From contig NC_090291.1 in NCBI RefSeq assembly GCF_037392515.1, positions 15,075,001-15,139,000 on the forward strand: 64,000 nt of DNA, read 5' to 3'. The stretch comes from Haliotis asinina (Eukaryota > Mollusca > Gastropoda > Lepetellida > Haliotidae). Below are positions 5,830-42,353 of this stretch, piece by piece. Under the pieces are notes generated by a model. It was given only the letters and a program-made list of their open reading frames with translations. It did no database searches and was not told the DNA's origin. The position numbers and the translations under genes were made by a program. Numbering within the stretch: position 1 is the stretch's first letter; each line of letters opens with the position of its first letter.

Positions 5830-8403
5830 TCGCAAACTGCAGGGTGCAGACATTACCTGAACTGAGCAGCGCACGTACGTACCTCTTGCTTTCTTTCACT
5901 GCACATCCTGATTAAAAATTCTAACATATGACATACACACAAAACTGATTATTAATTTGTCTCATAGTCGTAACTCTGGTTAGAATTACTAAATATGATA
6001 CTTTTGATAATCGCTGGTTGTTTGTTCATTTAAGTACATATAAACATCCAGTCCGCTCTGGGCGCTTTCATATGACAATGAATGCCTTTTCCAAAATTTG
6101 ACCTTGAAGCGAGTTTTCGTTTACTGTATGAGGTATTTGGAGCTGCATAATAGACAGCACTCGTTTGTTACATGCCTAACAGAAAAGGATTTACAGGTTT
6201 ATTGTTTGAAATAGTACAATAATTGGTCCAAGAGGTGCTAGGAAAAATGTAAATGACTGTGTGAACTTCTTTCAACAGGTGGGCGTTGTTATTACGCAGA
6301 TTGAGACAGGAGACAGGAATAACTGATGTATATTTATGTACATATATATTTATATTTATATATGTGACTTCTTGATCTCGGCGTTTAGGGACTGGTTTAG
6401 TTTTCGTCGTTGCGTTGCATTACCTAGGTCAGACTTTAATTAGAATCAGCATCAGCAATCAGTTGAAGATCTTCAGCGACGTACAGTATTGTCGCTGATG
6501 GGTCTGTTGTGTGTCCTACGGCTGTTGTGGCAGCTGGTATGAAGCGATTTCGCAAATGGGAGGTCACAATGTAGCGGTCTTGCCGGTATGACTTTACACG
6601 TGGACGTCCGCTAAGAGGGTGGTCAGCGACGGTGTTTGTGTAGATGGTGGACTGATGTGTTCCACAACGCCTGGCGACGTGTTACAAGCTCTAATCTGCC
6701 TCGCTATTCCCTATTGCTCTCTGGCGTTCTTTAGCGCTTAAACGTGGCGTGTTACTGTTGCATGAAAATGCGAATGCAGACGTTAAGCTGTATTCGTTCG
6801 TTAAGTAGCATCGTAAGAGCAAGAACATCATACAAAAATGCAATTCTAACTCCACGACCTGTCTCTACACGGGCAAAATGAAAATAATTGAGTTCACATT
6901 TTAGTGATATGTGAAGTCATGTATACGGAATCAATTACATACCAGAGACCTATTCAACACCGTAGATATACGTCACAGTAGATGCTGACGCGTTTCTCTG
7001 GGGGATATATATATATATAACTTATCCATTTATGCAACTTAATACCACATCTGCCTGTCTGCTAATGACAATATGCAATGCACAACTTCAATCACTGACC
7101 ACATGCAGTTTGAAATTGACACCTATCGGGCTTATATTATAAACCACAAACAGAGAGCCGGCTAAGTGTATCGGCAAATGAGCCAGCCAAAGAAAATATT
7201 TCGTTATACTTGAGTGCACACCCAACGGCTCGACTGGGTTCGGTATCCTGTGTCCTTCGTTTCGAACGTAGTAGACCCAAGTACAAAATAGTGCACTTTT
7301 TATATGCGATTGTACACCTATAATTTTTGTTTATTTGTTTTTTCATAATCACTAATGTATATTATATGCCATGAATAAGTGATAATCGTGTTTTAATTAT
7401 GTTTGATTTTTCGGTTGCATGTGACCTTTAACGAGCTGAGCAAGTGGGAATGAGCCATTCAAACAAGTCTAACTGGCATGCCATAGGGAAAACACTGCTC
7501 TCATGCATTCAAGGTGGGATCTGGTAGTCGGTGCCACAACATTTGGGTTTTTCGGTCTAAAAATAATAATTCGTGATAAAAAGTAGGGTGAGCTGTTAAA
7601 AATGTTAGATATACCGAACAGCAAAAGAAACGCAATTTTCGATAAAATAAAATCTCTTAAAAGTAAGCATCCCTGTTTATGTCTTATATTCAAAAACTTC
7701 ACAAAAACAGTTTTGCGTTTTTTTGCTGATCAGTATATTTTCAAAAGGTGAGTGGTGACACAGTTATGCATAGATTACAAATAAACACTGGATAATGAAC
7801 ATGAGTTAATGCATCTTTGTATATTGGGTAATTAAATTATGACCCTATTTTCGTCACAATGACGAAAGACATTATGATTAAAATAGTTTTCATATTGATA
7901 AAAACCAACGAGTTTTCCTATAAAGAAGATTCAGAGGTAAATATTAGCTGCGTATCTGCGCAAATTACACAAATATTCACGTGAACACTCAATTCTTATT
8001 AAGTCTCTTGTGGACAAGCACGCTTGGATTTTTGCAGATAACAATAAATAAGATAACTGAGGTATATTGAGAGTTTCTATTGCAGGCAATTTTCAGTCTT
8101 TCAGATCGTTTCTAATATTACAGATCAAATATAAATAACAAACACTTAAACCAATTTTATTATATTTTTACAGTTTATCGAAAATGGGGCAAAATGCCCA
8201 ATTGAATTAGAGTGAGTTTGGCATAATTTATTTTGATTAATATATTTGATTAAGGAATATTGACACCAGTTGAGATGATCACTGAGTTGCATAGTTCAGT
8301 GATCCAAGAAAGTTATCTGTAGCTCTGCAGGATTGGTATTGTTTCTGACTATCAGTATCCATAAAACCATCATAAAAATGTCACTTTATTCCATGTTTTG
8401 CAG
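5830..8403. other. Upstream flank of the PEPCK-like gene
   Basis: AT-rich DNA with no recognised coding exon. It contains repeat R1 copy 2 (7051-7144) and a short TA run near 7007. The first recognised coding exon is preceded by a splice acceptor (TTTTGCAG at 8396-8403). At least one further upstream exon, untranslated or coding a short leader, must therefore exist here or further left. I could not identify it, and no promoter can be called. Confidence 0.5.
7051..7144 (-). repeat. Dispersed repeat R1, copy 2
   Basis: Inverted partner of 3492-3587. Confidence 0.6.
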
Positions 8404-8409
8404 CGATCC

Positions 8410-11400
8410 ATGATGGAGGAGATTGAGAGTTCTGAGTTGTATGATGTACATGACGTTGTCACCCAATTTCTTGGCACTGTTCCCATCGTCAAAGGCAACT
8501 TTCCCCTTCTGCCAAAGAAAGTCCAAAAATGGGTGGTGAAACAGGTATGTCCTCTCGTAACTAATACCATCTGTGTCGGTGTTCTAGCAACATTACAAAC
8601 TCTGTATGCCATTCTTCTAGCAACAATACAAACTCTGTATGCCATTCTTCTAGCAACAGTACAAACTCTGTATGCCATTCTTCTAGTGATAACACAAACT
8701 CTGTATGCCATTCTTCTAATGATAATACGTTCTCTGTATGCCATTATTCTAGGAACAATACAAACTCTGTATGCCATTCTTCTAGCAACAATACAAACTA
8801 TGTATGCCATTCTTCTGGTGATAACACAAACTCTGTATGCCATTCTTCTAATGATAATACGTTCTCTGTATGCCATTCTTCTAGGAACAATACAAACACT
8901 ATATGTCATTCTTCTAACAACAATACAAACTCTGTATGCCATTCTTCTAGTGATAATACAAACTCTGTATGTCATTGTTCTAGTAACAATACAAACTCTT
9001 GATATCAACCTCCCAATAATATTACAAGCTCTAGTGTCTGACGGCCTGGGAAGATCCTGGTTAGAACTGGCCTTCAGCGATTCATGCTTGTGGTAAGAGG
9101 CAACTAAGAGAATCGCGTGTCAGTCTCGCTGACTTTCTTGACACGTCATCGTATCCGAATTGCGTAGATCGATGCTCATGCTGTTGATCTCTGGATTGTC
9201 TGGTCCAATTATTTATAGATGACTCCATACAGATGGAATATAGCACATAGCACATCTAAGTTAAGCTAAGTTAAGCTAAGTTAAGCTAAGTTAAGCTAAG
9301 TTAAGCTAAGTTAAGCTAAGTTAAGTCAACTTAGTCGATATTCCAGTAATCACCCATGAGGTGGTGTTTTTAAGATTTACACAGGACAGCAACAGAGATG
9401 CTTGTTGTATTTACATGATGTATGTTCGGTCAGAGTTTGGCACTTTGTATGCAGACTATAGTTCTTCGGCACTGTAGAACAAGGCCACAGCAATCTGTCT
9501 TTAAGATGCCATAGTGGATTTATATATGGGATTCAGCGACCTGCTTTACTCATCAAATTGAATTTCATTAGGTCAGAGAAATTTTGTTTCTTTTTTGACG
9601 AATCCGCTGGTTGTATTTTCTTTTTAAGAATAAGAACAAATAATAGATTTTCCCCGCTAAAAAATAAAATCCTAATGTTTTTTGTTTTTTATTTTGGGCC
9701 AAAAATGTAAACTTGCTATCAAATTCTCTTACATTACCTTTTGCCCCATATACTCATGATAAACTACCGAGAGTTAACGACTTTTAGCATTTAAAAGGAA
9801 TATTACTTTGACTGGTGACATTTTCACCCTCGTGCTTTTAGGTTTTCTGAGGACACAAACCCCTAAAAATGATGTATAATTGGTTTGGCCTAAAGGAGCT
9901 CTGCTCACTTTCATGAGCTGGACTGTTTTGTCAAGATTAATATATTTACAAGTTCTTATCTATCTTATAGCTTGAATGTTGCTCAGGGCAGTGTTGTAAG
10001 TGAGCAAACAACCAGTTTTTTTGTTTGTGTGCCTGTTTAATGTTGCACTCAGACAACAGTCTGTAAATACATGTAACTGAGTCTGGGTCAGACCAGACAA
10101 TCCAGTGATTAACTTTACGAACAGTGATCTCGTGACACATCTGGGCTTCTGTGACATGTTCACTAAGTTGGTGAGAGTGACCACCACCTGTTGACACCAG
10201 CATGGGTTGTTGAAGACCAGTTCTTCAGTAGCTGAAGATCTTCACAGTTGTCTATACACAACGTTTGTTCAGGTCGTCCTGTGTAAGCCAAGGGCTCTCT
10301 ACATCTGTGACGGAAGTCAGTTCGAAGCTGATGAGGTTATCCATAAGTTGGTGGAAAGTGGAACCCTTACTCAACTCCTGAAATATGAAAATTGGTACGT
10401 CAGCAGCTCCATTACATTGTACGTCCTAAAGTACAGTTAGAAAAAGAAAGAAAGGGCTTGTCTGAGGGCAGTTCAGAATGACCGCATGGAAGGTGAGGTA
10501 CGAGGAGAGACAGAAGGTATACTTTTCCAGCATGAGTTTCCAGCTCATGGCGGACGGGTCCGTTTTGGGCTTTGTAAGGATGGTCGAGCAGGACAAATAT
10601 GAGTTTTGTAAAAATATAGTTTCAACTGTCGTAGGAATTTAAAATGGGCATTTAAATGCTTTTAAGTACCCCAAAGAGGACTCTCTTCAAAGAATCATCA
10701 ACTGTTACAGATTTATTTGAGTTTACTATAGTTGGGGATGTTGCAGTTACCCGACCCACGTGATGCGGATGTTGTGGAAGGGAAGACGTGGATCTCCACA
10801 GAGGATCAGTACGAGACCGTTCCACATTTCAAAGCAGGGGTCAAGGGCATCCTAGGTCAGTGGAAGAATCCCAAGGACATGAAGGCGGAGCTTGATGAGC
10901 GATTTCCAGGGTGCATGAAAGGTAAGGTCAAGGACATTTTGAATTCACTTGTCAGTTATTGCTAGCGGTGTGGCGATTCATCGATAGGCATCAATGCATC
11001 GATCCATGGCTCGCCGATACAGTGAATCGATACAAAGTTTTACATTGTTTTATATCCCGATACGATACTTCAGATGAGCCACGATACATCAATGTTTATG
11101 TCTGATTATTGCGCAATATCTACCGAGAGAAACACCACTTACTTTTGTTTGATGATTAAATATATGCACAGTTAGTTTTCACTTCATAAGTTTCACTTCA
11201 CAGGAACTGTGTCAAACATAACGCTCGCATTTTAGTAACATTCACAAAGTTTGTGAATAAACTTAATTATCTCATTTCCGTACGAACATTTTGAAACAAG
11301 GTCGGAATTTAACGAAATACTTTAAAGTGGTTTTGTTTTTATTTCGCGGTGTTTCATAAAAGATTTTAGTATTGTGATATGTATACGATCACCAGCCTTA

Positions 11401-14400
11401 TATCGGGATTCACATCGTATCGCAGCTTCACTGCACAATACTTCGGCAATATATCGTCGTGACTTAGTATCGTCATATATCACATCGCAGGTAGAATGTC
11501 GGTACCTGTACATTCACACCACTGATTGTCATTGCTTAGGTACAGACGACACTTGAAATATATTTCTGTACTATCGCAGAACGCTGCAAATGTGCAATAA
11601 CTACTGGACTGTCTTCTCAATACCTTTAAGCATATTTTATGTGAAAACTTGCTTGTCAAGTCAACTTTGTTGATGGCAAATTGTTGGTTGTCAAAAGTCT
11701 TTAAACAAGCAAAAGGTATAATTCATATGTGATGACTGTCATGAGATCGTAGGTTATGCCCGCGTGAAGATCAGGATACGATTTTGGTCTTCAGCGTCCT
11801 ACACACGTCAAAAGAGTCGACTAAGCGGATCTGGCGGTCAGGCGTCCGCTCTTGGTTGACACTTCATGGAATCATAATTGTGTAGATCGAAGCTAATGTC
11901 ACCTGTCACTGGATTGTCTGGTCCAGATTTCATTATTTACCAATCACCATCATACAGCACTAGTGTTCGGCATTAAGAAACAAAATCAGTCAATATCCAG
12001 GCCAGCTGATTTTAATGTTCATGTTCCAGTGCCAATTACGACCACTAATGTTGGACCAAACTGTTTTTTCAGGACGCACCATGTACATGATTCCCTTCAG
12101 TATGGGGCCCGTGGGTTCCACGATGTCCAAGATCGGCATCCTGCTGACCGATTCCAGTTACGTGCTGTTGTCTATGAGGATCATGACCAAGGTGTCCCAG
12201 AAGGTCCTGGAGGTGCTCAAACATGGTGACTTTGTCAAGTGCGTGCATTCCGTGGGATGCCCTCGCCCTGTAAAGAGTAAGTCTTCAGACCATCACCGCT
12301 CATTTTTCAACAAATTCGTGAAGATCCTGGTTAAAATTGGTCTTCGGTAATTCATGCTTGTCGTAAGAGGCGACAAACGGGATCGGGTGGTCAGACTCGC
12401 TGACTTGGTTGTACACATGTCATGTTGTTGATCACTGGGTTGTCTGGTCCAAACTCGATTATTTTCAGACTGCTGCCAGGTTGCCGAAATATTGCTGACA
12501 ACAATCTAACCAACCATTTGCTCAATATACAATGAAAATGGTTTTGTAGGAAGTTTATATAGTAATATTGCCATATTGCTGTGATATTGCTGAGTCAATC
12601 GATCGATCAATCAATCAATCATTCATAGATCCAATCTTCAAAGGTTCACTCCCTGCGGGGAACAGTCCATTCTGTTGTTCCGACTTAGATATTGCCAGAA
12701 TATTGCTACCGTATTTAGTGCTCTGCTTCAATAAGCACCTTCTGACAAACTTCTAGACCAACCTGTAAGTAATCTTGCTATGTGTCCCAGTGATACTGGA
12801 AAATGACATGACACTCCATATTTCTTAGAGAAAGTGGTAGGTGAAACGGTATACCACAGTATTTTGCCTTCGGTTAGGTGTACCGTTATGCAATCCTGAA
12901 ATCGGTTATTTTCGGTTTTCCTACCGTCATTTCTAACTAGGCATAAACTGACAGTTTTGCTCATACAAAATAACAAAGACTATGGGTGTTGTTTTGGTTC
13001 TTGTTATTAAACAATTTTCAAGTCAATTTTCTTTTTCTTATGATCACATCTCTTATACCGAACAGAAGGCCTTGTACCACAAAACGTACCGTACCGTGGC
13101 AAGAACGTACCGTTTCACCCCTAGAAACTGGCAGCATAAAGTGGCATATTATTGCAGTGTAATTTTCGAAAAATGTTTTGTCATTCACCTCTGATCTAAA
13201 TTTGTCCAATCACAGATTTTAACTTATTTCCAACACAAGATGAAAGTTTTACGGTACATGTACTTTTTATGCTGCCCAAACCTTTCCTTTCCGGCATGTT
13301 GCCAACACCGGCATGAAATCTCCGTCCTAATCGTGACTTGTGCATTTACCATCAGCTATATAAATCCGGCACATTGTCTACAATGGATTATCTATTCAAT
13401 CCCAATGAGTGCCGGTTTAGACAGCTTCCATTGTATATTGGTCATGTATTTCCAGAGAAGGTGACCAACAACTGGCCATGTAACCCGGAGAAAGCCATCA
13501 TTGCTCATCTCCCTCAGGATCGTGTTGTCATGTCCTACGGGAGTGGGTATGGAGGCAACTCACTGCTTGGCAAAAAATGTTTTGCCCTACGAATTGCCAG
13601 TGTTATTGCCAGGGACGAAGGTTGGATGGCCGAGCACATGCTGGTAAGTTTGGCTCTCTACCTGCTTCATCTTTTGGGATAGAATGTCCTCAGCACCCAG
13701 TCCTTGTCTTGTGAGAATATTAAGTAGAATGTGTTCACAACACCCCATGCTTGTCTTCTAAAAGTTCAAGGGCAGGATAGCAGAAGATGGGTCCTCATCG
13801 ACAGTTATTTGCCTCGTGAGAAGGACAGGATAGACCTACGACCCCAAAAGCTTCACTTGTGATAATTAAAGGGAAGGATTGTTCCACTGTACCCCTTGCT
13901 TGTCCTGTTCAGGGTTTGATTCAGAATAGACGCCTGGTAGGATCCATATAGTCAGGGTTGTTTACAGTGCATTCGTGGGATTTGGGGCATTTTTCCCTCC
14001 AAAGTCAAGTTTGGTTTGGTCCTGTTAATGTATCTGTGATGGACCGTTTGGAACAACAGGCTGCTGAGTCCACAAGTGATGTCATTACGTTTTCTCCTGA
14101 CCTGTCGCGTTCGGAGGGGTCCCTCGCGTTTCGATCAAGGTTTTGACATATTTTGTGCAATCTGTCAAGACTTTCTACGGATGAAACGTGGACGCAGAGC
14201 AGCTTTGGACCACTTTTGTGACCAAGGTATAAAAATAAGGCCACCCAAGTAATAGCAGCCGTTGTATCCTGAGACACCGGGGGCTCCTTTCACGAAGCAA
14301 CCTCTACTAAGGTTGACCTTAATCCCATTTTTTAACATCGCACTAAGGTTACCTTAGTGACTTACGATCACCTTGGTGGTTTGTGAAAGGAGACGCTGAG

Positions 14401-17400
14401 CAGCATGAACCCCCATTATCACTGTACTTAAGGTGCGTTACCAGCATGCCAAAAATGGCGGCAGATCGCTTGGCGATTATTTCCCTCGAGTTAACAGTCT
14501 TCCACGTGTAAACTATCAAAATTATTTAACACAGTGATAAACTTTGATGGTGCAAATACATTCAGTTCACTGAATTTGCTTATTTAGGTCTATGTGTGGA
14601 GGAATAAGCGTTTATAAAATCGAGCGAGGATGTCGGTAACTCAGAGTTTGTGTGTCGGTTGAGTTACCAACATCCGATTTAACATCGATTTATAAAGTGC
14701 TTGTCAACATCACCTTAGGTTCAGTGAACATGAAGAAGATTGTGTGTTTGTATGTTTGCTGGGGGCTTCCATCGAGTCCTTGCGTCAACAAGAAGGCAAG
14801 CATCAGCTGCAGACATGGAATGAAGCCTGGATGTGTAGTCATAAAACGGGACGAATCGGATACCACACAAGGAAGTTTGGTGTGAGAACCGGGACAGAAC
14901 GGACAGCAAGGGTGAAACAAAAGTGACAAAACTTTACAGGATCGTGAAATGTCCTGGAATGCACATACCTCCTGTCCTATACGGACCCAATATGGACCGC
15001 CTACAAGTGGAAATCCGGCCTATTACCTGCTGTCAGGTTTAGAAGGCACTGTAGAAACAGTCAAGCCTTCACAGTCAGTAGTGATATGTATTAATTTGAG
15101 ACAATCCTAAATAATTTGGGCTAATCTGTGTTTCATTTACTGTGGCAACTGGGTTATAAAGTGAAAAAAAACCGTAATTTTTAGTATGTAGTGATCGATA
15201 CTTTATTCACAGACAAATATACAGTAAAGATTGTTTTTGAGTTTCCATGTTGTGCAGATATGTTCAGGAAAATTCTACAGAGTTGTTTCCTTGTCAGATC
15301 ATGAGCGTCACAGACCCAGCTGGCAAGAAGAAGTTCGTGTCTGCTGCCTTCGCGAGTGAGAGTGGGAAAACTAACCTGGCAATGATCAACCCCAGCGTTC
15401 CTGGGTTCAAGGTCAAGGTTGTTGGTAGGTTTTATGATGTGCCCTCTTCCTCTTTGTTCAGGTCTGCATTTATTAGTTTGTGTTAGAAATTGCAAACTAG
15501 GGCCACCTTTCACAAAGCACTACGGTGATCGTAAGTCACTATGGTTACTTTAGTGCAATGTTACTGAGTGAATGAGTTCAGTTTTACACGTCCCTCAGCA
15601 GTATTACAGCTATATTGCGGATGTCCGTAAATAATGACCAACAGCATGAGCATTGATCTGCGCACCTGGGAACCAATGACATGTGTCAACCAAGTCAGCT
15701 AGCCTGATCACCAGTTCACATTAGTCGCCTAGACATGCCTAGAGGACCCATGAACGCATGAACATGTTCATATCAGACAGTTTCTAGCTGTGTTAGATTT
15801 GGTTTGTTCCGCGATATTTTTCATGATTTGATTTGTACCAGAGAAGGTGACCAACTTTGCCTAATTTAATCAAATTGGACTTAATGATTATTTCTTGTCA
15901 TCTTCTTTGTCATCTTCTGACGACTCTTCTTTGTCATCTTCTGACAACTCTTCCTTGTCATCTTCTTTGTCATCTTCCGACGACTCTTCCTTGTCACCTT
16001 CTTTGTCAGCTTCTTTGTCATCTTCCGACGACTCTTCCTTGTCACCTTCTTTGTCATCTTCTTTGTCATAATCTGACGACCCTTCTTCGTCATCTTCTTT
16101 GTCATCTTCTTTGTCATCTTCTTTGTCATCTTCTGACGACTCTTCCTTGTCACCTTCTTTGTCATCATCTTTGTCATAATCTGACGACCCTTCTTCGTCA
16201 TCTTCTTTGTCATCTTCTTTGTCATCTTCTTTGTCATCTTCTGACGACTCTTCCTTGTCACCTTCTTTGTCATCTTCTTTGTCATCTTCTTTGTCATAAT
16301 CTGACGACCCTTCTTCGTCATCTTCTTTGTCATCTTCTTTGTCATCTTCTGACGACTCTTCCTTGTCACCTTCTTTGTCATCATCTTTGTCATAATCTGA
16401 CGACCCTTCTTCGTCATCTTCTTTGTCATCTTCTTTGTCATCTTCTTTGTCATCTTCTGACGACTCTTCCTTGTCACCTTCTTTGTCATCTTCTTTGTCA
16501 TCTTCTTTGTCATAATCTGACGACCCTTCTTCGTCATCTTCTTTGTCATCTTCTTTGTCATCTTCTGACGACTCTTCCTTGTCATCTTCTTTGTCATCTT
16601 CCGACGACTCTTCTTTGTCATCTTCTTTGTCATCTTCCGACGACTCTTTTTGTCATCTTCCGACGACTCTTTTTGTCATCTTCTTTGTCATCTTCCGACG
16701 ACGCTTCCTTGTCATCTTCTGACGACTCTTCTTTGTCATCTTCTGACGACTCTTCTTTGTCATCTTCTGACGACTCTTCTTTGTCATCTTCTGACGACTC
16801 TTTTTGTCATCTTCTTTGTCATCTTCTGACGACTCTTCTTTGTCATCTTCTGACGACTCTTCTTTGTCATCTGCTGACGACTCTTCTTTAACGCTACGCC
16901 AGTTGTATGGCAGTTACCTGTAACAAATTACTCTGTACCAGACAATTCTGTGTTCAACATCATGGACGTTGTTTTAATGTGTAGGGAATGACATCGCCTG
17001 GATGAAGTTTAACGACGCAGGGAACGGTGAGCTTCGAGGCATAAATCCCGAGGCAGGCTTCTTCGGCGTGGCACCAGGGGTCAACTCGAAGACAAATCCC
17101 AATGCGATGCTCACATTCCAGAAGGACTGTATCTTCACCAATGTTGCGGAGACTGCTGACGGAGGATTCTTCTGGGAGGGAATGGAAGATGAAGTGGATA
17201 AGGTAAGTCATAATGGTGTTCTGTTTAATTGAAGGAATCGAAGCTTACTCGCCTTGACCAAACGACCAAGCAATCGATCATTTTTTCTCATGATCGAACA
17301 CAAACGATTTTGGAACTACTGGGTTTTCGTCTTTGAAACACTTGACAACGGAACATATCTGTGAAGCTCCAGGGGCCTAAAAACGTGTTCAAATGTTAGA

Positions 17401-20400
17401 AAACTCACTGCATTAACTGAAATATGACTGAATATTTCATGAAGACTCAAGGAAGTTTATGCTCATGATATATTATTCATCACGTTAAAGGTGCATCATG
17501 TCAAGCTTATCTGCAATTGCAACCTGAATAGGAAAATCTGAAAAATGATACTAACCAATTTGTTTTCAATGATTACTGGTTAGTAATGAACCAGTCATCA
17601 TTTATGAGATATTAACCTGTTCCTAACACGAGTCAGTAATCAATTACTTTCATTGGACACCTCATGACAGGGTGGATTACATTTTGTGAGCTCAATGAAA
17701 CAACCCTTCAGCTCAGTCTGCTGGTGCTGCAGGGGCTTCTAAATTTCAAGGAAAAACAGGCCTTCAGCAACCCATACTTGCCATAAAAGGCGACTGTACT
17801 TGTCGTAAGAGGCGACTAACGGGATCGGGTAGTCAGACTCGCTGACTCGGTTGACACATGTCATCGGTTCCCCATTCCGCAGATCGATGCTCAAGTTGTT
17901 GATCACTGGAGTGTCTGGTCCAGACTCGATTATTTACAGACCTCCGCCATATAGCTGGAATTTTGCTGAGTGCGGCGTAAAACTAAACTCACTCACTACA
18001 TCACATGGTGGATGTATGGGTTTCAAAACCTTAGGTCATTTTGTTATCCTTCAGTTGCTGATGGAAGCATTATTTGAAGATGTTGTGTATTCAACGCATA
18101 AAAAAGTCTAAAGGGCGCCTCATTTAACGCACCTGTTGCTTTGATAGGACATATCATAGAAGAGGCTATTTTGGTGAACTCATAGAAACAGGATATCTTG
18201 CTTGACAACATTCCAATTCAATCAGTTGGTGCACATGGTTTTTTTTATGGTCTCAGTAAAACAGGTCATGTTTGTTTGACTTACTAATCAGTTAATTTAC
18301 TGTACTTAGACGCGCGTGGTAGGGTAGCCAAGTGGTCAAAGCGTTCGCTCGTCACACCGAAGACCCAGGTTTGATTCCCCGTATGGTTACAATGTGTGAC
18401 GCCCATTTCTGGGACATTGATAAAAGTGGTGCACAATCATACTCACTGCACGTACAGGCATCTTAATTCTCAGTCAAACCACAGGTGACGTTTGCTGAAC
18501 TTCTTGGGATTCTGAGAGCGGTGGGGTAGCCAGGCGGTTAAAGCGTTCACTTGTTACACCGCAGACACAGGTTCGATTCCTCAATGGTAAAATGTGTGAA
18601 GCCCATTTATGGTGTTTACTGACGTTATATTGTTAAAAACTGCGTAAACTCACTCACTCTTAGGATTCTGAGGATTCTGGTGAAAGGTTTATGAAAGGTA
18701 GAGCAGATGGAGGCTAGTGCACATGCAGTAGATGACGATGAAACTGATTCCGTACACGCCCTGCTCATAGGACTCTCTGTGTAGCAAGTCGATACTTTTT
18801 TTTACCTGGGGTCCCTTCGCTGGCAAGCGCCAGTGGGTGGTAATCATGCATACTAATAAGGGTCAATTGTCAGGTAGGTGCTCAACTTATCCTTGTTTGC
18901 CAGTAATGTAAGTAAGCTTCATAACTGCAGGATTTACCCCTGTATGTTGTGCAGAATATGAGAATGACAACATGGCTGAACCAGGAATGGCGTATTGGAA
19001 GCCCTGGCTTGGCTGCTCATCCCAACTCTCGGTTCATGGCACCGGCCAGTCAGTGCCCTATCATTCATCCCAAGTGGGAGGATCCAGCTGGGGTACCAAT
19101 CAGTGCCATTATCTTCGGCGGCTGCAGACCAAGAGGTTGATGTTGACAACCAACAAACATTTTTAATGGATGTCATAAGTCAGTATTTGTGAATTAAGAA
19201 AACTAATATTTGAATCTCAATAATCGAATTCTATTTTTTATTCCCACAGCACCCCCTATTTACACGCCTTTCATTAGTTGCACAACATCCAACGGGAATG
19301 TCTTTTGACAGGCTTTCAAGGAGAAGAACTATTATACTGATAGACATCATATGGCTCAGATTATTTGTAATTTTTTTTCTGACATGAGAACGGGATAAAA
19401 AAACAGTGAAAATTTACCCGGGGGTCTACGGGGTCTTTTATTGCGGATTTACATAAATCCCTAAACCAATGAAAAAAAATCCCGGAAATTCGCGAAAATA
19501 CTCATGTCTTTATTTTCTGGTTCAAGGATAAGATTCTTAAACTGATGACTTTTAGGGAATGCTGAAATGACCGTAATAAGGACTTAAATGGAACCTGTGG
19601 GTTTTCTAGGTGTTCCCCTGGTGGTGGAGTCATTCAGCTGGGAGCATGGGGTGTTGCTGGGAGCTTGTGTCAAGTCTGAAGCTACAGCTGCAGGAGACAC
19701 AGGTTTGTTATCCTGTTGCAGGGCAAAATGTCCTTGTGTCGTCTTGTGAAAGTGCAGAACACACATGAACGTATGTACTTTTATCAAATCTAGTCACAAT
19801 GTCATCACAGTTCATCCATGTTACGTCGGTCACAATGTCAGTAGTGGTCACGGGCCGGTGAGATAGCCTAGTGGTTGATATGTCCGCTCGTGACGGGGTC
19901 TGTTCCCCACATGGCTACAATGTGTGAAGCCGTTTGTCTGGTGTCTCCTATTGTGGTATGTTTGGAATGTTGCTCAAAGCGGTGCAAAAACGTACTCACT
20001 CAAACATTTGATGTGGTCAGAATGCGTGTAGAGGTCATTGATCTCACAATGTCAGTGATCACCCATGTGACAGGGGTCACAATGCCAGTAGGTCACCCAT
20101 GTGACAGAGGTCAGTATGTCAATGGGTTACCATGTCACAGAGGTCACAATGTTAGTAGGTCACCCATGGGACAGAGGTCACAATGTCAGATCACCCACGT
20201 GACAGAGGTAACAATGTCAGTAGGTTACCCTTGTGACAGAGATCACAATGTCAGTCTTTTGTCGCATGTGGACAACAGATCTCTAAAATGTCATTTTCAG
20301 GGAAGACGCATGACCCCATGGGGATGCAGCCATTCATTGGCTACAACTTTGGGAAGTACCTGCAGCACTGGCTGGACATGAAGAAGCCAGAGAGAAAGGT

Positions 20401-21623
20401 AGAATTATAAATCTCTTTTGCCCATGTAATACCCGAATAATGTTTGAGCAAATTTCTTTGTGTTATGTTCAACCATGTGACTATATCAAAACTTGGTGTG
20501 GTGTCCAGATGCCCAAGATTTTTCATGTGAACTGGTTCCGTGCTGATGGTGATGGTAAGCCCTTGTGGCCTGGATTGGGTGAGAACATCCGTGTCCTTGA
20601 CTGGATCCTGAAGCGGTGTGATGGAGAGGTGGAAGCCATCAAGACCCCTGCTGGATACGTGCCCAAGAAAGGTATAGCATGTCTTAGTGACAGTTATCAT
20701 TGACCTCTGAAGATCCTGGTTAGAGCTGGTCTTCAGAAACAAATGCTTTTCAGAAGACTAGTGGATTTGTTTCATGCCGCAATAATCAATATGACAGCTA
20801 TATGGAGGCGGTTCTTGCGGATCACATGTGACCCAGTGTGTGGTATATCCATGTGATACTGTGTGATATAGCCATGTGACCCACGTGTGGCATATCCATG
20901 TGATACTGTGTCATATAGACATGGGACCCATGTGTGGCACAGCCATGTGATTTCACGTGTGGTATAGCTATGTGACCAGATTTGTGGTATAACCATGTGA
21001 TTCCATGTGTGGTATAGCCATGTGACCCTGTGTGGTATAATGCTATTCCATGTGTGGTATAGCCACATGACCTCGTGTGTGGTATAGCCATGTGGTCCTG
21101 TGCAGTATAGGCATGTGATTCCATGTGTGGTATATATCCACATAATCCTGTGTGTTTATAACCATGTGATTCCATATGCGGTATAGCCATGTGACCCAGT
21201 GTATGATATATCCATGTGATACTGTGTGGTTTAGCCATGTAACTCAGTGTGTGGTATATCCATGTGACCCGTTGTGAGGTATATCCATGTGATACTGTGT
21301 GGCATAGCCATGTGGTCCCATGTATGGTATATCCATATGACCCATTTGTGGTATATCCATGTGATGCAGTGTGTGGTATAGCCATGTGATCCATGAGTGG
21401 TATAGCCATGTGGTGCCGTGATGCAGGTGATTTCAACCTGGATGGTCTGGACAAGCCTGTTGACTGGGAAGAGCTGTTCAGTCTGCCCAAGAAGTACTGG
21501 TTGGAAGACACCCGTGAGTCACGACGCTTCCTGGAGGACCAGATGGGCACTGATCTTCCGAAGGTCATGTCTACACTGCTTGACCAGCAGGAAAAGGACT
21601 TCTCCGACTTGCCAGACAAGTAA
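8410..21623 (+). CDS. PCK: GTP-type phosphoenolpyruvate carboxykinase relative with altered active site
   Basis: PEPCK converts oxaloacetate and GTP to phosphoenolpyruvate, CO2 and GDP. The twelve coding exons are 8410-8544, 10273-10398, 10747-10921, 12073-12276, 13456-13643, 15298-15424, 16985-17202, 18955-19135, 19610-19702, 20301-20398, 20509-20671 and 21427-21623. All junctions are GT-AG with matching phase, giving about 634 residues; human PCK1 has 622 and PCK2 640. The exon 2 donor and exon 3 acceptor are the least sure: exon 3 could start at 10732, or exon 2 could end at 10394. Family blocks are clear: [62 protein letters not shown] and FHVNWF. The Mn ligands (Lys244, His264, Asp311 in human numbering), Arg405 and the P-loop GKT are kept. 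Replaced are Arg87 (Val), Cys288 (Ser), Asp310 (Asn), Arg436 (Cys), Phe525 (Pro) and Phe530 (Leu). The frame is intact, so this looks like a maintained paralog, possibly with weak or no classical activity. Any leader sequence upstream of Met 8410 is unseen. Confidence 0.93.
8583..9003 (+). repeat. 33 bp minisatellite in PEPCK intron 1
   Basis: About 13 units of 33 bp (core CTCTGTATGCCATTCTTCTA) start some 40 bp after the exon 1 donor. Variant units recur in the same order: the block at about 8683-8780 repeats at about 8816-8910, giving a higher-order repeat. The unit length is a multiple of three, so long spurious frames open on both strands. Confidence 0.9.
9047..9250 (+). repeat. Family A repeat with GAAGATCCTGGTTAGA head
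   Basis: Variant head (AGATCCTGGTTAGAACTGG), then the CGATGCTCATGCTGTTGATC and GGATTGTCTGGTCC blocks. The tail is degenerate. Confidence 0.7.
9255..9325 (+). repeat. 10 bp tandem repeat (CTAAGTTAAG)
   Basis: About seven near-perfect copies directly follow the family A tail in PEPCK intron 1. They look like an expansion of the tail of that element. Confidence 0.9.
10963..11523. mobile_element. Probable ~560 bp non-autonomous hAT-like element
   Basis: The left end TAGCGGTGTG and the right end CACACCACTG are inverted. The interior is unusually rich in ATCGATA/TATCG motifs at both sides. No clear 8 bp target duplication was found. It starts about 40 bp after the PEPCK exon 3 donor. Confidence 0.45.
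11762..11960 (+). repeat. Family A repeat, diverged
   Basis: GTGAAGATCAGG head, CACTGGATTGTCTGGTCC core, weak tail ending near CATACAGCAC. Confidence 0.6.
12318..12515 (+). repeat. Family A repeat
   Basis: GAAGATCCTGGTTAAAATTGG head, followed by CGACAAACGGGATCGGGTGG, the GTTGATCACTGGGTTGTCTG core and a CCGAAATATTGCTGAC tail, in PEPCK intron 4. Confidence 0.75.
12829..13130. mobile_element. 286 bp non-autonomous hAT-type element with 8 bp target duplication
   Basis: The element spans 12837-13122. The inner ends GTAGGTGAAACGGTA and TACCGTTTCACCCCT are inverted. They are flanked by AGAAAGTG (12829-12836) and AGAAACTG (13123-13130), an 8 bp duplication with one mismatch, which is the hAT hallmark. 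There is no transposase. It lies in PEPCK intron 4. Confidence 0.7.
14281..14394. mobile_element. 114 bp short inverted-repeat element
   Basis: The ends GGCTCCTTTCACGAAGCAAC and ...TTTGTGAAAGGAGAC are inverted, with inner CTAAGGTTGACCTTA and TAAGGTTACCTTAG palindromes. A partial copy lies at 15500-15562, in the next PEPCK intron. Confidence 0.75.
14464..14676 (+). repeat. Dispersed repeat R2 with terminal hairpin, copy 1
   Basis: The blocks ATCGCTTGGCGATTA, CACTGAATTTGCTTATT and GAGGATGTCGGTAACTCA occur in the same order at 42879-43000. Here the last block is followed at once by its inverse (GAGTTACCAACATCC), forming a hairpin. Confidence 0.65.
15500..15562. mobile_element. Partial copy of the short element at 14281
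   Basis: CCTTTCACAAAGCAC followed by GTGATCGTAAGTCACTATGG. It matches the other copy read from its opposite end. Confidence 0.6.
15565..15735 (-). repeat. Family A repeat, minus orientation
   Basis: Tail-side TGAGTGAATGAGTTCAGTTT, then AGCAGTATTACAGCTATATT and the GTGTCAACCAAGTCAGC block. The head is lost. Confidence 0.7.
15893..16890 (+). repeat. ~1 kb array of 15 bp units in PEPCK intron 6
   Basis: Built from TTGTCATCTTCT and GACGACTCTTC modules, arranged in longer blocks (a ~120-150 bp super-unit containing TCATAATCTGACGACCC recurs several times). Because the unit is a whole number of codons, open frames of 344 codons (plus) and 250 codons (minus) result. The whole array lies between two phased PEPCK exons (15298-15424 and 16985-17202). 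Confidence 0.95.
17735..17998 (+). repeat. Family A repeat, near full length (reference copy)
   Basis: The order of blocks used to recognise this family is: CCTTCAGCAACCCATACTTG, CGACTAACGGGATCGGG, the CTGACTCGGTTGACACATG region, GATCGATGCTCAAGTTGTTG, AGTGTCTGGTCCAGACTCG, CATATAGCTGGAATTTTGC, GAGTGCGGCGTAAAAC, then an ACTCACTCAC tail. About 260 bp, no coding capacity. It may be a SINE, but no clear RNA-derived head or pol III box was recognised. Confidence 0.85.
18318..18460 (+). repeat. tRNA-headed SINE (family B), copy in PEPCK intron 7
   Basis: GGTAGCCAAGTGGTCAAAGC has A-box character and CCAGGTTTGATTCCCCGT is a B-box-like match, placed as in a tRNA. The tRNA fold decays after that. The tail is lost. 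Confidence 0.75.
18520..18656 (+). repeat. tRNA-headed SINE (family B)
   Basis: GGGGTAGCCAGGCGGTTAAA head, CACAGGTTCGATTCCTCA B box, short body, and a GCGTAAACTCACTCACTC tail shared with family A. It sits about 60 bp after the previous copy in the same orientation. Confidence 0.75.
19853..20003 (+). repeat. tRNA-headed SINE (family B)
   Basis: GTGAGATAGCCTAGTGGTTG head, TCCCCACATGGCTACAATGT body, and a tail ending near ACTCACTCAAAC. Confidence 0.65.
20085..20260 (+). repeat. ~34 bp minisatellite in PEPCK intron 9
   Basis: About five units built on GTGACAGAGGTCACAATGTC and AGTAGGTCACCCAT. It stops about 40 bp before the exon 10 acceptor. Confidence 0.85.
20825..21420 (+). repeat. ~25-27 bp minisatellite filling PEPCK intron 11
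   Basis: More than 20 units of the GTGTGGTATAGCCATGTGA type. The array runs to within about 7 bases of the exon 12 acceptor at 21426, so the sequence upstream of that acceptor is repeat and has no pyrimidine tract. A 308-codon minus frame across it is a by-product. Confidence 0.9.
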
Positions 21624-23869
21624 TCACTGTTGCTGTCATTGCACAACAGACACCAGAGACCAGTTGTCAGATGCATGATCCAGTGTCTAGCGATATGAAT
21701 ATTTATCGTGCCTCGCATATAAATGTCCTCTTCTGATTGGCTGAGCACTTATCTGTCATTTTCAACATACCCTGCTCACAAGCATATAACATTTTCTATG
21801 CACACACTGCTAATGCTGGTGCTTTGCTAGTGTGGATTAATCAATAATCAAATTTATCAATTCAAGCAAATATTTTGGACCAAGGACCATTGTTTCAGTT
21901 GACAATATGGATGATCAAGTTTCTGAGATCACCTGGAAACATTTTGAAAGAGTACCATTGTTTCAGTTGTTTATGGGGTTCACAGATATACTCTTAAAAA
22001 TGTAGGGGATAATGAACTTTGAGTTTGGATAGGAAGTGTAAACGTTAACAAACGTTTCAGTGACAGACATCTTATGAACGCACCACCATTTCCCTCTATT
22101 ACCACCCCACAACGCATGATATGCACATGCACAACGCAGTAGTCCCATACAGGTGCATGGGGTCCCATTCTTGATTTGACGTTTTATCAAGAAGGTCGAG
22201 AAATCACCAAGAACATAAATTTTGACACACATCTTGCAACACACATTTGTTAGTTTTTGTTTCTAGTTGTTTTAAAATGAAAATTGTATACATGCAAATT
22301 ACATGCCATACCCCAATCATCTTTCACAAGCGACTACATTCCAAATAACTATGGTTGTAAGGAAGTTGAAATGGTGATGCACCCTCAAACATTCAGTAAT
22401 ATCATATCAACACGGACTGACTCCAATAAATCTCCTAAATATTTTTAATTGTAAATTATAAAAAAATGAAGATGCTGTACATTTTTTGGAGAGTATAGTT
22501 TTGGGGAGGAGCACTCTGCTTGTATATTAGCATTAGAGGGTAATTTAAACAAAATGGAGAAATAAGTTTGCTCTATGTATCTTAAGTCATCTGCATTGTC
22601 CTAATGTATTGTTATGATGGCACATTCCGAACAAATCCGAGCCCATTCTGATAAATCCTGATTATTTTAATACCTCCCTTTGCTGGCTCTGCATTCTCAC
22701 AGTAGCACGTCAGCTTAGCCCCAGTTGCAACCGAGCTTGGCTGTGTCAACAAAGACAGCAGTCACAGCTGTGAAGGTTGATTTGATATAGTTACCAAGTC
22801 TTGCAGAAAAATATTAAACAGATTTTGAGTAATGCTTTGGAAACAAAGCCCACTCCTCCCTGCTGTCCAAAATGTTTCCATCAAAGCCAGGAAAAATAAA
22901 AAAGACAGAAATCAACATACTGCCAAAGGTTCCATCTTAGATTCTGTTTCTACCAATTTTTGTTGAGAAATATCGAATAGTTTTAGACTTATGCTCTAGA
23001 AGCAAAAAGATTACAGACGTATGGACAAGGCGTTGACTATATCCCCCTAGCATATAAAATAAAAAACTGTCAACATTTGCTAAATATTGCAATATGATGC
23101 AACTGTCTTTCCTGAGCTGACTTTGATTATAGTATATTTGTTGATCAAAATTTTGCACATTATGAGAAAGTTGTGTTATCTGTTTATATTATTTTGTTAT
23201 CTGTTATATGTTATTGTGTTATCGTTTTTTTATTAAGCACTAACTATCACTAAGATAATCAATATATTTAATACTGTTCCAAGGACAACTTTTTGAGAAG
23301 TCAAATATTATGTAATACTATTTGTATGACAACATATTAAAGCAATAAGAGAGATTAAGTATATGCACTCAAAGTATAAATATAAATATATATTACTTTC
23401 AAATTTTCACTGTCAATAACTGCAGTTTGTCTGTTGTCTGCATTATGTCTTTTGTTCCTGTTACCATTAAAACATATAATCTTCAGAATTTGTTCTGTTT
23501 TACACAAAAATTAGGAGTCAAAGGAATGTAACCAAAGCACTGTACATCAAAAACTGTTGCACATGTTGTCGGGGTTTGCCGAAGTGGCCTTAATCACAAG
23601 TTGCATTCCAAGGAACAGAAAATCTACGGGTTCCGCTTATAATAACATTTGGTCGGTAGAGGGCTCGAGAGTCGATTTAATGCAACATTGCATTAATTCA
23701 TTTGAACCTTTTGCAATTCATATTGTAATCTTAATATGTAACAATATTTGTAATACAATAAATGGCTGCTTCGCTTACTGTTAAATAAAGATAAGTTAAG
23801 GAACAGCTTGACAATTGACCGATACTAGCATGTATGTATACTAGTACTTGCCATTTTGAGCGAAGGGGA

Positions 23870-25732: not shown

Positions 25733-42353
<16,621 letters not shown>

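Follow-up and report, generated by a model that had tools for sequence, protein, structure and literature searches.

Phosphoenolpyruvate carboxykinase (PEPCK), a monomeric enzyme, stands at the branch of glycolysis, gluconeogenesis, and the anaerobic succinate route used by molluscs. The stretch of the Haliotis asinina genome analyzed here (64,000 nucleotides, NC_090291.1, positions 15,075,001 to 15,139,000, referred to below as the window) carries a gene that resembles a GTP-dependent PEPCK along nearly all of its length, with several of the residues expected in the active site replaced. The question raised by this locus is whether the gene encodes a working enzyme, a protein that has kept the fold of PEPCK and given up its chemistry, or nothing at all, being a copy that has recently lost its reading frame.

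The gene was modeled as 12 exons, placed from splice signals and homology (Table 1). The spliced protein matches the Pfam domains PEPCK_N (PF00821, 488 bits) and PEPCK_GTP (PF17297, 267 bits), each along nearly the whole domain, and its score against the NCBIfam model NF003253 is 722 bits, with a cut-off of 504, which places it in the GTP-PEPCK sequence family. The match to rat PCK1 amounts to 784 bits, compared with 1009 bits for the canonical abalone copy described below. Intron 1 contains, soon after exon 1, a 33-base tandem repeat in 12.7 copies (8582-8999), through which the exon 1 frame remains open for 243 codons from stop to stop (8365-9096). A 12/108-base minisatellite of ~1 kb in intron 6 (15895-16886) contains long open frames of 346, 264, and 254 codons, distributed over both strands, and is probably not a gene, and a 25-base tandem repeat of ~24 copies in intron 11 (20825-21412) lies inside a minus-strand open frame of 308 codons (20822-21748). 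Elsewhere in the window, also on the minus strand, an open frame with a DDE_Tnp_4 transposase domain (919-1647, 85.9 bits) represents a DNA-transposon relic or copy, and mobile-element frames are found at 34250-39161, including an RVT_1 reverse transcriptase (35273-37477, 78.9 bits); the three frames adjoining the latter gave no Pfam match on the scan.

Table 1. Exon model of the altered PEPCK gene, with positions counted from the first nucleotide of the window and residues numbered as in rat PCK1.
Feature	Position	Strand	Remarks
Exon 1	8404..8544	+	First ATG at 8410; PEPCK_N match begins at residue 40, within this exon
Exon 2	10273..10394	+	Conserved donor TTG|gtacgt at its end, following KYEN + TG, which the canonical copy shares
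Broken-phase junction	10395..10404	+	Intron begins at 10395 with the conserved donor, at 10399 with the poor donor tac|gtcagc
Exon 3	10732..10921	+	Start at 10732 (conserved context) or 10747; R87V at 10771-10773
Exon 4	12073..12276	+	Splice signals and homology
Exon 5	13456..13643	+	Y235, K243, K244, and H264 retained
Exon 6	15298..15424	+	P-loop: P285A, A287E, C288S (codon 15361-15363)
Exon 7	16985..17202	+	D310N at 16987-16989; D311 retained
Exon 8	18955..19135	+	N403 and R405 retained; R436C at 19123-19125
Exon 9	19610..19702	+	Omega-lid begins
Exon 10	20301..20398	+	Completes the lid; three residues, aligned with rat 473-475, missing close to the junction with exon 9
Exon 11	20509..20671	+	F517 retained; F525P at 20560-20562; F530L at 20575-20577
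Exon 12	21427..21623	+	Includes the stop codon

Residues are numbered in the text, as in the table, according to rat PCK1, by alignment. Compared with the vertebrate cytosolic GTP-PEPCK (PCK1; PDB 4ywb and 2qew, the chains of which we take to be rat PCK1), the altered protein shares both Pfam domains at full length, the Mn site, the GKT motif, Arg405, Asn403, and Tyr235, and differs by the substitutions R87V, P285A, A287E, C288S, D310N, R436C, F525P, and F530L, as well as by a lid that lacks three residues. Six of these substitutions had been named in the original prediction, made from the DNA alone, and the codons, read again, are as claimed: GTT at 10771 (Val), AGT at 15361 (Ser), AAT at 16987 (Asn), TGC at 19123 (Cys), CCC at 20560 (Pro), and TTG at 20575 (Leu) align with positions 87, 288, 310, 436, 525, and 530, respectively. 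The retention of the metal ligands, of Arg405, and of the lysine and threonine of GKT, claimed at the same time, is equally borne out. Lys244, His264, and Asp311 of the M1 metal site are all present, as are Lys290 and Thr291 of the kinase P-loop, and Lys243, Trp516, Phe517, Trp527, and Asn533 are also kept.

Conservation of these positions was assessed in a set of 28 sequences, comprising the canonical abalone copy, rat PCK1, and 26 bacterial GTP-PEPCK loci; the latter were drawn from matches in 3 of 3, 15 of 100, and 9 of 41 genomes, with each of the last two sets including one of the first three. Positions 87, 285, 288, 310, and 436 carry the same residue in all 28 sequences, and all five are replaced in the altered copy, with Val in the R-loop in place of Arg87, Ser in the P-loop in place of its reactive cysteine, Cys288, and Asn and Cys in the nucleotide site in place of Asp310 and Arg436. 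The near-invariance asserted earlier for all six replaced positions thus stands for 87, 288, 310, and 436, whereas it is softer for the remaining two, which are mostly aromatic: position 525 is Phe in 23 sequences, Trp in three, and Tyr in two (aromatic in 28 of 28), and position 530 is Phe in 19, Tyr in seven, Ile in one, and Met in one (aromatic in 26 of 28). The aromatic guanine pocket formed by residues 517, 525, and 530 is therefore reduced in the altered copy to Phe517, with Pro and Leu at the other two positions. Beyond the substitutions first listed, the changes include V85A (Val in 26 of the 28), A86D (Ala in 27), P285A, A287E (Ala in 26), and T339V (Thr in 26). At position 461 the altered copy has Lys; Arg occurs there in only two of the comparators, both animal. 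The gap in the Omega-lid is aligned at rat residues 473-475, and the sequence flanking exons 9 and 10, inspected by eye, showed no donor or acceptor that would restore the missing residues in phase. All three mobile loops of the active site, namely the R-loop, the P-loop, and the Omega-lid, are altered.

The literature on these loops gives an indication of what their loss may entail. The accessible part of PMC12529880 distinguishes an R-, a P-, and an Omega-loop in the active site and describes a lid that must order for the reaction and remain closed, since on early opening the intermediate is lost as pyruvate. Density in rat PEPCK was read, in PMC8420759, as CO2 contacted by the main chains of Arg87 and Gly237, together with the side chain of Asn403. 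Docking and simulation, as far as they are described in the available text of PMC4631375, place Arg87, Asn403, and Arg405 in contact with oxaloacetate (OAA) or phosphoenolpyruvate (PEP), and the same text includes Cys288, Asp310, Arg436, Phe525, and Phe530 in its list of the GTP site, whereas an excerpt of PMC7948413 calls the R-loop with Arg87 essential for catalysis. A literature search on the experimental effect of C288S in PCK1 yielded a single paper, in which C288S concerns another protein.

Taken together with the conservation data, these descriptions suggest that canonical PEPCK activity has very probably been lost in the altered protein. An enzyme that is still active in a PEPCK-like manner, with another nucleotide (ATP, ITP, or PPi) or another substrate, would agree with the retention of the M1 ligands, of GKT, and of Tyr235, Asn403, Arg405, Trp516, Phe517, Trp527, and Asn533, and a change in nucleotide use would agree with the presence of the guanine-pocket positions 525 and 530 among those replaced. 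Such an enzyme nevertheless appears improbable, as Arg87, Asp310, and Arg436, invariant in all 28 sequences and assigned to the substrate or nucleotide site in the accessible part of PMC4631375, are all missing, and the lid is shortened.

The distribution of the losses along the protein was compared with that expected from conservation. Seventy-four columns are invariant in the other 28 sequences, and the altered gene keeps 66 of them, the losses being at positions 87, 141, 175, 285, 288, 310, 325, and 436. The same invariant-column control, applied to seven of the 28 rows, gave no loss in the canonical abalone copy, in rat PCK1, or in the bacterial loci L032 and L016, one loss in L018, five in L038, and six in L039. 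With a list of ligand sites that was taken from papers and drawn up after several lost residues had already been named, so that the p values are only indicative, 7 of 30 ligand columns are lost versus 11 of 126 others among the columns identical in at least 26 of the 28 sequences (one-sided p = 0.033), 5 of 19 versus 3 of 51 among the fully conserved columns (p = 0.030), and 8 of 37 versus 10 of 119 when the three loops are added to the ligand set (p = 0.033); an initial two-sided test, for which the site list differed slightly, had given 18 of 23 site columns kept versus 48 of 51 others (p = 0.098). When the comparators were tested in turn, 26 of the 28 lost no ligand column. L038 and L039, which lose 10 of the 30 ligand columns each, are bacterial GTP-PEPCK relatives that diverge further than the remaining 24 (371 and 348 bits versus at least 526) and possibly belong to a separate subfamily. 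The bias of the losses toward the active site is modest, and what is striking is which residues went.

A search of the genome for a second, canonical PEPCK, as had been proposed together with the original prediction, located one upstream on the same contig and strand (C12:15056908-15064401), 19,009 bases before the first ATG of the altered gene. The ten exons of this copy read through into a PEPCK of 642 residues, in which the R-loop, P-loop, GDDIAW, GGRRP, and FLWPGFG are canonical and the usual residue is present at all six positions replaced in the altered copy. No further PEPCK was found outside these two loci by family and whole-protein searches of the genome in which the best candidates were scored, with all 10 matches to PF00821 and all 21 matches to the altered protein falling within them. 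The forward qPCR primer for pepck of Haliotis discus hannai (MH220521.1), taken from the accessible part of PMC7924355, matches the canonical copy at 20 of 20 bases, whereas the reverse primer, with five mismatches in the canonical copy and four in the altered gene, is a good fit to neither. Because the forward primer is exact there, the published abalone pepck probably corresponds to the canonical copy, as judged by one primer of two. The exact primer match also agrees with an assignment of the genome to Haliotis, as do six matches on contig C14 to Egg_lysin, a family typical of abalone and its kin; an abalone source is very probable on these grounds.

The two copies also differ at their N termini. 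Judged by eye, the start of the canonical protein is basic and presequence-like, and the only other PEPCK found is the altered copy, which as modeled has an acidic N terminus without the look of a presequence. This difference suggests a cytosolic location of the altered protein, although an exon earlier than exon 1 is possible, since an acceptor-like ag precedes exon 1.

In addition to the contig and strand, the two abalone genes share 55.3% identity (617 positions), close to the 56.0% (602 positions) between the altered copy and rat PCK1, whereas the canonical copy and rat PCK1 are 69.1% identical (609 positions). In a three-way alignment, all three sequences agree at 292 sites and all three differ from one another at 97; the altered copy alone departs at 124 sites, compared with 45 for the canonical copy and 44 for rat PCK1. 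Four introns, at rat positions 136, 204, 266, and 440, were found by script to coincide in position and phase, and two more coincide by inspection, at ~75 (phase set by hand) and at 471/472. Five introns are present only in the altered copy and three only in the canonical copy, two of these inside the region common to both and the third in the N-terminal extension of the canonical copy. The duplication looks old, both from these differences in intron position and from the distance of the altered copy to its canonical neighbor, which equals that to rat PCK1. A recent tandem duplicate was also considered and is not favored, given the same differences in intron positions and the number of sites that the altered copy has in common with the canonical copy and not with rat (44), which does not exceed that in common with rat and not with the canonical copy (45).

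A tree of 27 rows comprised the altered gene, the canonical abalone copy, rat PCK1, and 24 bacterial rows. The altered gene groups with the two animal sequences with support of 100/100 against the bacterial rows, on a branch of length 1.15, compared with 0.34 for the canonical copy and 0.34 for rat PCK1. The order within the three animal sequences is weakly supported (78/32), and neither a clade of the altered and canonical copies (p-AU 0.363) nor one of the altered copy and rat PCK1 (p-AU 0.34) is rejected, so that the tree is compatible with a duplication either before or after the separation of abalone and rat.

Selection on the altered copy was judged from its comparison with the canonical one. 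At four-fold degenerate sites their identity is 0.296 (169 sites), pS is 0.744, and pN is 0.304; GC3 of the altered copy is 0.62 versus a GC content of 0.41 in its introns. As synonymous sites are saturated while the proteins are 55% identical, these values indicate that purifying selection kept the altered protein for most of its history, which speaks for the past and not for today. The lack of stops alone is not decisive, because neutral simulation at half the divergence, with a mean of 6.6 stops, reached a minimum of 0 in 300 runs.

The present state of the gene depends on the junction of exons 2 and 3. According to the original prediction, every one of the 12 exons is open and all splice sites are phased. 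The exons are indeed open, and phase is kept at 10 of the 11 junctions; the exception is exon 2/3, where phase is lost when the conserved donor is used. Joined from that donor, the frame stops after 126 residues (codon 127), or after 121 (codon 122) with the later acceptor, and a scan of donors from ~10333 to 10533 and of acceptors from ~250 bases before 10747 to 120 after it found no stop-free in-frame join of the conserved donor to exon 3. The least disruptive alternative is tac|gtcagc, four bases further on, which yields a stop-free frame and is a poor donor, with C as the third intron base, seen in none of the 19 donors listed. The same scan lists five more donors that lead to a frame free of stops, of which any before 10395 would remove part of the conserved exon 2 and any beyond 10399 would insert additional foreign residues. 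A continuous protein would thus call for a shifted exon 2 donor, at 10399 or elsewhere, or else the sequenced haplotype or its assembly would carry a one-base frame difference, as a private allele or an error.

Owing to this junction, the main rival to a maintained protein is recent gene loss, that is, a gene long functional in which the frame at exon 2/3 is now lost in the lineage or the haplotype. It is suggested by the persistence of the conserved donor, and of the acceptor in its conserved context, which yet join into a frame that shifts to a stop, as well as by the fast evolution of the protein, with 124 changes of its own versus 45 for the canonical copy. The several stops or frame breaks typical of a pseudogene are nevertheless not found in the 12 exons, only this one doubtful junction; a donor four bases further restores the frame; and decay should be blind to position, whereas the losses somewhat, if modestly, favor the active site over equally conserved columns. 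We regard this explanation as unlikely, with an appreciable residue of plausibility. Much the least probable is an artefact of alignment, assembly, or gene model behind the odd residues: a single frame difference at a single joint could have such an origin, but the six replaced codons are spread over five exons, inside well-aligned blocks, and the canonical copy is normal in the same assembly. The claim of a selected paralog that is not a dead copy is half supported, the long purifying selection of the past being supported, whereas "not dead" is weaker than claimed in view of exons 2 and 3; the gene may be functional at present or recently lost.

The reading that we consider somewhat the more probable is that of an old animal GTP-PEPCK paralog, located behind the canonical gene, that was under selection for most of its history and has lost the canonical GTP-dependent chemistry of OAA and PEP. 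A more specific version of this paralog reading, a PEPCK pseudoenzyme or pyruvate-releasing oxaloacetate decarboxylase of early-animal age, in which the R-loop, P-loop, guanine pocket, and Omega-lid were remodeled and the metal site and fold were kept, is put forward tentatively, as falling somewhat short of an even chance. In either version, the PEPCK fold would still form, Mn or Mg would be bound via Lys244, His264, and Asp311, and a phosphate-bearing ligand via GKT, Arg405, and Asn403. Deprived of Arg87, Asp310, Arg436, the P-loop cysteine, and a full lid, however, the active site would not close over the enolate, and phosphoryl transfer would not be completed. The outcome would be either a pseudoenzyme, with a part in ligand binding or in regulation, or at most a leaky decarboxylase of oxaloacetate, dependent on metal, from which the enolate would escape as pyruvate.

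Although PEPCK is a monomer, a catalytically impaired copy next to an active one, as proposed here, has a parallel in the prozyme of trypanosome AdoMet decarboxylase, a regulatory dead paralog according to the accessible part of PMC5201418. Among the matches listed from a part of the open-access literature, no title or abstract opening describes such a PEPCK copy, which is weak evidence of novelty. A retained copy that lacks its catalytic loops would offer a natural experiment on what the PEPCK fold can do without PEPCK chemistry. It would also speak against taking the gene, which the NCBIfam model names an equivalog, for another gluconeogenic PEPCK, and, if true, the pseudoenzyme or decarboxylase reading would give molluscs a non-gluconeogenic protein with the PEPCK fold.
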